Shown: one piece after another, positions 23,655-26,773 of the stretch
Position numbering within the stretch: the first letter of the stretch is position 1
Layout of the letters: each line of letters opens with the position of its first letter
The notes under the pieces: model-generated
The model's input: the letters and a program-made list of their open reading frames with translations, nothing else
Told to the model about the DNA's origin: nothing
Databases searched by the model: none
Translations under genes and position numbers: made by a program
DNA from: Acidobacteriota bacterium
GTDB lineage: Bacteria; Acidobacteriota; Terriglobia; Acidiferrales; UBA7541
Length of the DNA stretch: 64,000 nt
Assembly: GCA_003154775.1 (NCBI GenBank)
Contig: PMES01000110.1
Coordinates: 1-64,000, forward strand
Direction of reading: 5' to 3'

Positions 23655-24932
23655 CTATCTTCCCGCTGGGATCCGTTCAACGCCCATATACGGGCGAAGC
23701 ACTTCCGGGATCACAATCGAACCGTCGGCTTGCTGGTAATTCTCCACCACGGCAATCCAGGTACGCCCCACGGCAAGTCCTGATCCGTTGAGCGTATGCA
23801 CGAATTCGCTCTTTCCGCCGGCCTTAGGCTTGAAACGGATGCCCGCACGGCGCGCTTGAAACGCTTCGCAGTTCGAGCAAGAGGAAATTTCCCGGAATTC
23901 GTTGCTTGAGGGCAGCCAGACTTCCAGGTCGTAAGTCTTCGCCGAAGCAAAACCCATGTCGCCGGAGCAGAGCAGCACGGTGCGGTAGTGCAATCCGAGT
24001 TTCTGCAGGATTGTCTCGGCATTGCGCACCAAGGCTTCGTGTTCGTCGTAGCTTTTTCCCGGATGCGTGAATTTGAAGAGTTCCACTTTCTGGAACTGGT
24101 GCTGGCGCAGGATGCCCCGTGTGTCTTTACCGGCCGCGCCGGCTTCGGAGCGGAAGCAGGAAGTCCATGCGGTCACGAGAATGGGCAATTGCTCCTCGGT
24201 GAGCGTGGTGTCGCGATAGAGGTTGTGTAGCTCCACTTCCGAGGTAGGAGTCAGCCAGAAATCGGTGTCCTGCAACTTGAAAAGGTCCGCGGCAAACTTC
24301 GGCAGTTGGCCCGCGGCCAGCAGTGAAGCAGTGTTCACCAGGAAAGGCGGCAGGATTTCCGTATAGCCGTGCTCGCGCGTGTGCACATCGAGAAAGAAAT
24401 TCGCCAGCGCGCGCTCCAGCCGCGCTCCCCAGCCCTTGTATACGGCAAACCGCGCGCCGGTAATTCGGGCAGCCGCTTCCAGGTCCAGGATTTCCGCGCG
24501 TTCCCCAACCTCCCAGTGAGGCTTTGGTTGAAAATCGAACTTCGGCGGCGTACCCCAGCGGCGCACCTCCAGGTTGTCCTCGGGGCCATGGCCCGCAGGC
24601 ACGCTGGAATGCGGAACGTTCGGAATGGTCAGCAGCAGTTCGCGTTGTGTGGCGTCCAGTTCGGCGATGCGCGCGTCGGCCTGCTTGATGCGCTCGGAGA
24701 GCTGCTTCATCTCCACGAGGATGGCGTCCGCGCTCTGCTTTTCCTTTTTGAGGCGCGCGATTTCGTCGCTGGCTTTATTGCGTTGCGCCTTGCGATGCTC
24801 GTTTTCGGTAATCAGTTCGCGCCGCTCTTTGTCCAGCGCGCGAAAACCATCGAGGTCGAGTGTGATGTTGCGGCGCTTCGCCATATCGGCGAAGACGTCC
24901 AGATGTTCCCGAAAGTAGCTTAGATCATGCAT
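23655..24932 (-). CDS. serS: seryl-tRNA synthetase
   Basis: The 425-residue protein shows the N-terminal coiled-coil arm (about residues 30-100). Class II motif 2 is at FRSEAGAAGKDTRGILRQHQF and motif 3 is in the LNGSGLAVGRT segment. It charges tRNA-Ser, and also tRNA-Sec before SelA acts, which ties it to the selB/selD genes here. The long upstream region lacks a T-box core. Confidence 0.95.
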   Translation of the reverse strand: MHDLSYFREHLDVFADMAKRRNITLDLDGFRALDKERRELITENEHRKAQRNKASDEIARLKKEKQSADAILVEMKQLSERIKQADARIAELDATQRELLLTIPNVPHSSVPAGHGPEDNLEVRRWGTPPKFDFQPKPHWEVGERAEILDLEAAARITGARFAVYKGWGARLERALANFFLDVHTREHGYTEILPPFLVNTASLLAAGQLPKFAADLFKLQDTDFWLTPTSEVELHNLYRDTTLTEEQLPILVTAWTSCFRSEAGAAGKDTRGILRQHQFQKVELFKFTHPGKSYDEHEALVRNAETILQKLGLHYRTVLLCSGDMGFASAKTYDLEVWLPSSNEFREISSCSNCEAFQARRAGIRFKPKAGGKSEFVHTLNGSGLAVGRTWIAVVENYQQADGSIVIPEVLRPYMGVERIPAGR

Positions 24933-25219
24933 GGTGCTAAAAGCATAGCCCAGGCAGGAGCCGAGAGAAAGCGGGCGAACCGTAAAAAGGTGATCTTGTG
25001 ATTTGCATAAGGGCTTCGCCGACGCTGCGAGCGTTCAAATCACTCCCCCAAAGATCGCTGTGCTGACACGCTGGTAAGAGAGTACTAAAGGAACGCCCCA
25101 ATAGTCCCGGGGCAAGGTACTGGTGCGAATGAACCCGGCGGACTAGTGACGCAATTCCGCGTGTCCGGCATCCTTGTGGATGTGATCGGGAGTTAAGTTC
25201 GGCTCCTGGAGCGGGTGGA

Positions 25220-25300
25220 ATGATCGTAGGGATCTTAATCCTGTGTGTCGTTCTGCTGCTGGCGAGCGCAGTTGAGCGGCCAACCCCTCCAGAGCATTAG
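25220..25300 (+). CDS. 26-residue hydrophobic peptide in the structured RNA
   Basis: The ORF runs from ATG 25220 to TAG 25300, with GGAG (25208-25211) 8 bases upstream. Residues 2-17 are almost wholly hydrophobic (IVGILILCVVLLLASA), and the tail ERPTPPEH is polar, so the peptide should sit in a membrane. It is flanked by a highly structured 5' region and a terminator, which resembles type I toxins or small membrane-protein genes; that comparison is inference. It is too short for routine gene callers. Confidence 0.45.
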   Translation: MIVGILILCVVLLLASAVERPTPPEH

Positions 25301-25346
25301 GGAGTCGAACCGAGCTTCAGGTCCGTACCCTCCATCCCCCACGCCA

Positions 25347-25383
25347 GAGCGGCCGGCACCCCCACCGGCCGCTCACTTTTTTT
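25347..25383 (+). terminator. rho-independent terminator of the structured RNA
   Basis: GAGCGGCCGG (25347-25356) pairs perfectly with CCGGCCGCTC (25365-25374) across an 8-nt loop, followed by AC and seven T residues. It defines a plus-strand transcript in this intergenic region. Confidence 0.88.
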
Positions 25384-25454
25384 GGACCGCGTTTTCAGAT
25401 TATGGCGAATGCAAGGAATCTCAGCAGCTTTCAGTCTTGGGGGAGGCCGTGGAC

Positions 25455-25486
25455 AAAAAATAAAGGGGGCCGGTGCAAGCCCCCTT
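25455..25486 (-). terminator. rho-independent terminator downstream of the DUF4349 gene
   Basis: On the minus strand, AAGGGGGC and GCCCCCTT form a hairpin (25463-25486) followed by TTTATTTTTT. It would end the transcript of the DUF4349 protein gene about 290 bases after its stop. Confidence 0.8.
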
Positions 25487-25771
25487 GTTTAATTGATTCG
25501 ACCCCCCAATAACCGGATACTCAGTCGAGGTTGAGTACCAGCCACCCCGGGAAGCCAATCTCATGAATTGTTTTGATACAATGCACGCGCTTTGCCAAGT
25601 CTGTGCCAGTGTGAGAAAAGGCACTTTTCTATTGAAAAGCAAGCACTTACTACTTTAGAGCCTCGGCGAGAGCGTCTTGCCAAACTGCCAATCTACAAAA
25701 TCCCACAGACCAACTCGAGTTTTCCTACAGTCTTTGGGAAGAGTGCAAGTCTTTCAGCCCCAGCACCCTAT
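25487..25771. other. intergenic stretch with no supported gene
   Basis: About 285 bases between the terminator and the DUF4349 stop codon. I see only a short TACTCA/TGAGTA inverted repeat near 25520 and AT-rich patches. It may be a long 3' untranslated region of the DUF4349 transcript. Confidence 0.4.
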
Positions 25772-26773
25772 TCAGACGATCTGAACCGGCGTTCCGCCCT
25801 GAAGTGCGGAGTGCCGCCAACGACGCCATGCGAATCGCGCGGGCAGATAGAGGATTGCGATCCACAGGAGGAAAACAGGGCCGCGGCTGATGAGCAACAT
25901 CAGTAGGGCGGAGAGGCTCAGTACCGCTTCCGAAAACCCCGTGACGGCTGCGTTGCGAAACTGTGCTCCGAGGGATTCCGTTGGCGGAGTGATCTCCTCC
26001 CGCAATGCAAAGAGGACATTCGCGAAGACGACGCGGTGTTCTGCCGTGAGGCGGTCCGCTTCCAGGCGATTGATGTCTGCATTCACGCTGGCGATCTGCC
26101 GCTGCAGCTCCATAACGTTGCGATCGGGATATGTCTGCTGCTTAAGCAGTTCCTGCAAGTGATGCAGCGTGCTCTGCGCATTGGTCAAGCGGGCTTCCAG
26201 GTCAGCACGTTGTTGGGTGACCTCATCGGCAGCCTCCTCCTCCCACTCGACTTGGCCAAGAGTTTTCAGCTCGCTTAACGTTGCGCCATATTCCGAAGAA
26301 GGAATGCGTAACGTCGCCGAGAGAGTGCTACCCGTCGGCTTCCCTACCATCCGGAGTTTTGCCACATAGCCCCGATGACGGTCGAGGATTTCTTCGAGGG
26401 AGGACCGAGACTTAACGAACTCCTTCGTGGCCACCGCGAGTTCCGCCGTGTGCGCAATCAACGGGTCCCCCGGCAGCATGATTCCACCCACCCTGCTGGC
26501 CGGAAAGTCGCGGGAGTCCACTGGCGCAGGCGACATCTTTGCGTACTCCTTCAATTCTTCCTTCGCACGGCCAGCTTCCATTTGGAGTTCGCTCGTCCCA
26601 GACTCTGTGCTCTGGAACGCAGCAGTAGTCCGGGAATGCTCCATCATGGGCTGCGGAGTCATTCGGGTAAAAACAAAAAGGCCAACGATGATGGCCAGCA
26701 CTACGAATAACCCGCGTCGAATAGGGGAGAGGGTACGGAACTTCGCAAGGAGCGAAACGATAGCGTTTCTCAC
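25772..26773 (-). CDS. DUF4349 membrane protein
   Basis: The 333-residue protein has an N-terminal membrane helix (about 19-38). The DUF4349 core (about 100-290) has a beta segment followed by a long helical hairpin (LEARLTNAQSTLHHLQELLKQ...DINRLEADRL), and a second hydrophobic segment and basic C-terminus follow. DUF4349 proteins are cell-envelope proteins of unknown function, sometimes lipoproteins; no lipobox is seen here. It is followed by its own terminator. Confidence 0.75.
   Translation of the reverse strand: MRNAIVSLLAKFRTLSPIRRGLFVVLAIIVGLFVFTRMTPQPMMEHSRTTAAFQSTESGTSELQMEAGRAKEELKEYAKMSPAPVDSRDFPASRVGGIMLPGDPLIAHTAELAVATKEFVKSRSSLEEILDRHRGYVAKLRMVGKPTGSTLSATLRIPSSEYGATLSELKTLGQVEWEEEAADEVTQQRADLEARLTNAQSTLHHLQELLKQQTYPDRNVMELQRQIASVNADINRLEADRLTAEHRVVFANVLFALREEITPPTESLGAQFRNAAVTGFSEAVLSLSALLMLLISRGPVFLLWIAILYLPARFAWRRWRHSALQGGTPVQIV

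Follow-up and report, generated by a model that had tools for sequence, protein, structure and literature searches.

A family-restricted transcription unit beside serS in Acidobacteriota: a candidate dual-function regulatory RNA with an optional membrane peptide

A compact transcription unit located beside serS, in the stretch of 64,000 nucleotides analysed here (the window), is on balance best regarded as a dual-function regulatory RNA that optionally encodes a membrane peptide, and we lean towards base-pairing as the way in which this RNA regulates. Comparison with relatives of the same bacterial family supports, at the level of the sequence, the geometry of the promoter, codon selection on the peptide, compensation in a hairpin, the conservation of a C-rich segment and of a terminator, and the repeated absence of the peptide. 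Among the readings offered by the initial annotation of this DNA, a riboregulator together with a small membrane protein comes closest, in that the peptide is conserved as a protein and the unpaired C-rich 3' segment outlasts it.

Between the start of serS (24932) and the end of the next gene (25772), both of them on the minus strand, lie exactly 839 bases, the size initially given. The RNA is assigned to the plus strand, on which the T-run is kept among the aligned relatives, and the predicted transcript extends from 25181 to 25383 (about 200 nt), its start being placed from the –10 box and its end from the terminator. The region 24960–25390 folds better than expected by chance (z –2.68, with 2 of 100 shuffles as stable), as the nested stems described in the initial annotation would have it, except that one of these stems, near 24988–25060, precedes the predicted transcription start (~25181); the beginning of the feature, which had been set at 24990, is likewise too far upstream. 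What lies at 24988–25060, 5' of the promoter, is a separate inverted arrangement (GTGATCTT-GTGATTTG ... CAAATCAC ... AAGATCGC) that, in a nucleotide search of 101 genomes, was aligned only in the window's own genome and in G035. On the other side of the unit, at 25462–25496, a two-way terminator (GGGGGCCGGTGCAAGCCCCC), short matches to which recur in many relatives of the genus, probably ends the neighbouring minus-strand gene.

Across the whole window no Rfam 15 family scored up to its gathering threshold, which agrees with the earlier impression by eye that no common housekeeping RNA is matched; at E-values up to 10 only chance-level matches were obtained for 24900–25800, and no family matched the loci of 10 relatives. 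The unit is confined to a narrow group of bacteria. The nucleotide search with 24940–25500 in the 101 genomes (own genome included) gave matches in 49, all from the same family, and a single copy in the window's genome. A covariance model based on 15 relatives detected the unit in 63 of 299 genomes from the class; conservation in relatives had been proposed as a check, and all carriers do belong to a single Acidobacteriota family, to which Candidatus Acidiferrum belongs and for which 72 genomes are listed, with compensatory changes in the hairpin, while the other 227 genomes have none. In a phylum-wide draw of 297 genomes, the window's own genome alone matched. Both covariance-model searches were run with Infernal's stricter filters, by which weak relatives elsewhere could be missed, and the family genomes are in part metagenome-derived assemblies. 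The hairpin register in the structure of this first model (R1) suits only some of the sequences, and R1 was used for the distribution only. The set of 63 sequences excludes L055, a duplicate of L026, and L177, a truncated second hit. Two copies, L027 and L055, were seen in G007; the second does not differ from the G010 copy over the length of the unit and may stem from another species present in the same bin.

Near the 3' end of the transcript is a C-rich segment, CCCTCCATCCCCCACGCC (25328–25345, plus strand), a candidate pairing site complementary to Shine-Dalgarno sequences, which is near-invariant in alignment A1. In 54 predicted transcripts, a set that leaves out those failing the segment pattern, it is unpaired with a mean probability of 0.87, against 0.35 for the rest of the transcript, and the value exceeds 0.6 in 49 of them. 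The pattern misses the segment in 6 of the 63 sequences; inspected by eye, L182 has it, L040 has part of it, L174 has it in altered form, and L169, L170 and L171 are without it. The segment is followed by an intrinsic terminator (25347–25383, plus strand), a perfect 10-bp GC stem (25347–25374) with the loop CACCCCCA and the T-run ACTTTTTTT, and the strong terminator of the initial annotation is thereby located; its stem is 100% paired in the 25 sequences of genus g1, with compensatory changes in 2 of 10 pairs. A search for the exact complement of the segment, GGGGATGGAGGG, in 31 genomes of the genus gave no conserved target upstream of a start codon among the 30 loci inspected, several of which are the unit's own locus. 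In L218, L226 and L242, GGGGATGGAGGG is also found in a recurring stretch 5' of an ORF, which we take to resemble a group II intron-type reverse transcriptase. Of 10 genomes searched for Hfq, one gave a score above the cut-off, and it is not that of the window (G000); Hfq is not required of all sRNAs.

The second possible product of the unit is a single-pass membrane peptide with a C-x6-S motif, encoded by an ORF of 26 codons (MIVGILILCVVLLLASAVERPTPPEH; 25220–25300 with the stop, plus strand), just 5' of which lies the ribosome-binding site GGAGCGGGTGGA (25208–25219; GGAG/GGGTGGA), both as initially described. That this peptide is real in the window we consider very likely, on the basis of codon conservation and of its homologues. 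The ratio pN/pS among four divergent g1 ORFs is 0.50 in frame and 1.28 and 1.95 in the shifted frames; between genera g2 and g5 it is 0.41 against 1.12 and 1.19, and between g11 and g1 it is 0.55 against 0.68 and 1.31. The more distant comparison of g2/g5 with g1 is uninformative, with 0.82 both in frame and in one shifted frame. These tests cover 17 ORFs in pairs that are not independent, and L005, L007, L011 and L015 have no canonical start. As the hairpin-bearing clade of g1 mixes codon and hairpin constraints, weight is put on the divergent g1 ORFs and on the g2 by g5 and g11 by g1 comparisons.

Genera g1, g2, g5, g6 and g11 have homologues of the peptide at this position next to the same promoter unit, and the C and the S of the motif are invariant in nine aligned peptides. 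No family in Pfam, NCBIfam or PADLOC was matched, and a search of 81 genomes of the family with a protein model gave 16 matches at E < 0.001 (including the sequences that built the model), all of them at this locus. Weaker matches were obtained in two g6 genomes, G040 and G052 (E 0.013 and 0.028), the former unmatched in both the earlier RNA and nucleotide searches and the latter in the nucleotide search. The locus of G040 contains the GTAC palindrome, the boxes TCGACC-17-GATCCT, a ribosome-binding site, a C-x6-S ORF, a C-rich segment and a terminator, and that of G052 has the same layout. An equal layout with TAGACG-17-CAGAAT accompanies a weak match in G576 (genus g5); two further weak matches turned out, on inspection of the DNA, to be due to chance.

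In the window, the ORF and its ribosome-binding site lie inside a closed hairpin domain (25182–25327, plus strand), formed by pairing between the 5' end of the transcript and the nucleotides directly preceding the C-rich segment, so that the predicted transcript starts directly at the hairpin base. The ends of the domain form 13 pairs, against 2.05 in shuffled sequences (z –4.7), and the 20 nt before the start codon have a predicted probability of only 0.06 of being unpaired. Because the ribosome-binding site is predicted to be folded into the hairpin, translation of the peptide in the window is probably restricted or conditional. The same closing fold, with at least 5 end pairs, is predicted in 51 of 57 relatives (the 63 sequences minus the 6 in which the pattern did not find the C-rich segment), among which the first 16 nt form a mean of 11.1 pairs against 3.3 in shuffles, with a median folding z of –3.85.

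Pair counts were taken from the group-wise alignments A4, A6 and A7. In the 10 sequences of genus g4, 97% of the cells of the hairpin are paired and 4 pairs are altered on both sides; in the 25 sequences of g1, 95.2% are paired and 8 pairs are altered on both sides, a score reached by 0 of 500 shuffles. A third group of 5 sequences (A7) is too uniform and gives no covariation signal, with 194 of 500 shuffles reaching its score. In alignment A4, the 3' arm of L001, L003, L009 and L017 looks shifted by roughly one base, and these rows were counted without correction; RNAalifold on alignment A2 recovers the terminator only. An extra run of about six C was seen in the hairpin loops of genus g3 and of L044 (genus g8), namely in L041, L044, L045, L048 and L092 (L039 and L093 were not covered), and is possibly a second C-rich pairing site.

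The hydrophobic ORF is found at the same position in 14 of 46 sequences, in 18 of 63 when four added loci are counted, and in 21 of 66 with the three loci from the peptide model. Many g1 relatives have a broken frame, or no stop before the terminator, and keep the hairpin, and no ORF of this type was seen in genera g3, g4, g7, g10, g12 and g13. In an RpoB tree of 22 rows, 9 of whose 19 inner branches are well supported, lineages with and without the ORF are intermixed. The peptides look homologous, and the simplest account of the sequences would therefore be an ancestral ORF that was lost several times.

The same material can be read as a small gene of the ordinary kind, the product of which is a membrane peptide under regulation, with the C-rich stretch and the terminator as its 3' UTR and with the ORF-less versions as decayed copies or as genes for unrecognised peptides. 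Selection at the codon level is what such a gene would show, and it is in its favour that the g2, g6 and g11 forms have an ORF with a usable ribosome-binding site and that L029, L047, L049 and L168 have the ORF without a closed hairpin. Decay, however, should erase the remainder of the unit, whereas the promoter, the C-rich segment and the terminator persist in most lineages without the ORF, where the hairpin, moreover, shows compensatory changes. We therefore regard an ordinary small gene as unlikely, and retain the regulatory RNA with an optional peptide as the preferred reading.

Upstream of the predicted start, the strongest conservation 5' of the ORF is found in GTAC, AATGAACC, CTATCGAC and GCANAAT. 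In the window these correspond to GTAC at 25117–25120 and AATGAACC at 25128–25135 (within 25117–25135, plus strand; their centres lie about 62 and 50 bases 5' of the predicted start), to a –35 box GTGACG at 25146–25151 (family consensus TCGACG/C) and, 17 nt 3' of it, to a –10 box CATCCT at 25169–25174 (family consensus CANAAT or CANACT). In the aligned sequences the third position of the –35 box is G in 63 of 63 and the fifth is C in 62 of 63, and A2 and T6 of the –10 box are present in all 63. The layout NNGACN, spacer, CANNNT has a spacer of 17 nt in 61 sequences and of 18 nt in the other 2; the spacer varies freely in sequence, and the most informative positions of both boxes are invariant or nearly so.

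The strong conservation of GTAC, AATGAACC and CTATCGAC could also mean that the block 25117–25174 belongs to one longer structured noncoding RNA. The conserved pieces, however, sit at the positions of sigma-70 boxes, exactly 17 nt apart, and no helix is predicted in the block across relatives, where no consensus pairing probability exceeds 0.22. This lack of a consensus helix, together with the constant spacing of the boxes, leads us to read the block as a sigma-70-type promoter with upstream sites, of which, as far as comparison of sequences goes, we have little doubt, and makes the longer RNA improbable. A strict consensus scan of the window misses the proposed promoter. The first base of the –10 box, which is C in 59 of the 63 sequences and G in 4, is atypical and suggests a weak promoter in need of an activator.

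The upstream sites are where such an activator would be expected to bind, the GTAC palindrome and AATGAACC lying about 50–65 bases before the predicted start. Most of the other genera have an AGTAC-N3/4-GTAC palindrome, with GTAC as its right half. Of the 63 sequences, 61 have GTAC at most 70 nt upstream of the core (on average 1.6 occurrences, where 0.21 would be expected), and its distance to the –10 element is exactly 50 nt in 36 of 46. Of the 21 exact matches to the composite GTACYGN5AATGAAC across 36 genomes of the genus, 20 fall at this locus. The AGTAC-N4-GTAC palindrome, which in our view resembles the cyanobacterial LexA box, brought LexA/SOS control into consideration, and this was rejected, the box being absent at the lexA and recA loci: RGTAC-N3/4-GTWC does not occur at 25 lexA loci of the family, and its one site in 19 recA loci lies about 1.8 kb downstream of the start of the recA match. 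The lexA genes have a different conserved upstream stretch, TTGACGTTCGCTTTCTTTTCGCCTAAAGT (seen by eye in L109–L133), which probably serves this family as LexA operator and promoter. In many relatives of the genus (L010, L012–L015, L021, L023, L024 and L050), a same-strand ORF of about 137–152 codons is located 55–207 nt 5' of the unit; its translation, judged by eye, looks like a small regulator of the MarR/ArsR type.

A type I toxin gene, in which folding of the mRNA together with an antisense RNA would keep a membrane toxin silent, was among the readings of the initial annotation. In its favour are a short hydrophobic peptide of 26 aa and a structured mRNA with the ribosome-binding site locked in (unpaired 0.06). 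What speaks against a toxin is the single copy in the window's genome, the lack of a match in the Pfam, NCBIfam and PADLOC libraries, the frequent loss of the peptide with retention of the RNA unit, and a gap that contains no promoter-like site on either strand, antisense included (a weak test, as the scan also misses the proposed promoter). We consider this explanation a little less probable still than the longer RNA. A divergent form of a known housekeeping RNA, also suggested initially, would fit a unit that is single-copy in the window's genome and conserved in the family, and can practically be dismissed given that no Rfam family matches, that 6S and tmRNA are found elsewhere in the genome (G000:C145:33666-33878 and G000:C74:19608-19959), and that the unit is confined to one family. 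A riboswitch or leader was likewise rejected: in relatives, the DNA beyond the terminator has no gene that recurs on the same strand, and in the window the genes at this place are on the minus strand.

According to the dual-function reading, a putative regulator bound at the GTAC and AATGAACC sites would switch on the weak sigma-70-type promoter TCGACG-N17-CANAAT, giving a transcript whose predicted length is roughly 90–240 nt and which the intrinsic terminator would end. The exposed C-rich segment near its 3' end (CCUCCAUC..CCCCA.GCCC, of the CCUCC type) would pair in trans with the Shine-Dalgarno regions of target mRNAs and block their translation. In the window and in part of the relatives, the transcript would also encode a single-pass membrane peptide of 23–39 aa with C-x6-S, which, where present, may act at the membrane as a second output, the hairpin over the start region limiting its translation in the window.

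More tentatively, the locus may represent a natural series of conversions between mRNA and noncoding hairpin, in which the peptide was lost independently several times within one bacterial family. The members of this possible series would share the promoter, the C-rich end and the terminator, with a middle part consisting, in some genera, of an open and unfolded ORF for the membrane peptide, in others of an ORF with a hairpin (as in the window), and in the remaining ones of a bare hairpin. Most known dual-function RNAs come from a few Proteobacteria and Firmicutes; we know of no earlier dual-function sRNA in Acidobacteriota, of which this unit would be the first, and a literature search limited to open-licence PMC papers found no report of this RNA. 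A family-wide set of this kind, from soil bacteria that are abundant and little studied, would bring coding, mixed and noncoding states together; it would allow transitions from mRNA to regulatory RNA to be tested and would show which half of a dual-function RNA is retained by selection.

Several known systems can be compared with the unit. The type I toxins of the TisB/Hok type share with it the short hydrophobic peptide and the structured leader, from which it differs in that no antisense RNA was seen, it is not multicopy, and the peptide is dispensable over evolution. The sRNAs of Firmicutes with C-rich motifs, such as RoxS, IsrR and LhrC, resemble it in the unpaired C-rich motif expected to mask Shine-Dalgarno sequences; they belong to a different phylum, and to our knowledge no conserved peptide goes with them. 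The layout of the unit corresponds to that of SgrS/SgrT and VcdRP. SgrS/SgrT of enteric bacteria has a regulated promoter, a small ORF 5' of a conserved pairing region and an intrinsic terminator, and the SgrT ORF is missing in some species (PMC4021124), as is the peptide here. Unlike SgrS, the unit has no Rfam match, carries a C-rich segment complementary to Shine-Dalgarno sequences, and belongs to a genome in which Hfq is not evident; compared with SgrT, its peptide is plain, single-pass and hydrophobic. In VcdRP of Vibrio cholerae, a regulator site 5' of the –35 box, a small ORF, a pairing segment and a terminator follow one another in the same way, the peptide has 29 aa, and pairing takes place through one conserved stretch of cytosines close to the 3' end; VcdP binds citrate synthase and is conserved in all tested species (PMC8672173). 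The peptide described here, in contrast to VcdP, is hydrophobic and often absent, and no sequence relation to VcdRP was found. Although a relationship in sequence was not found, the unit would, by analogy, work like SgrS/SgrT and VcdRP.
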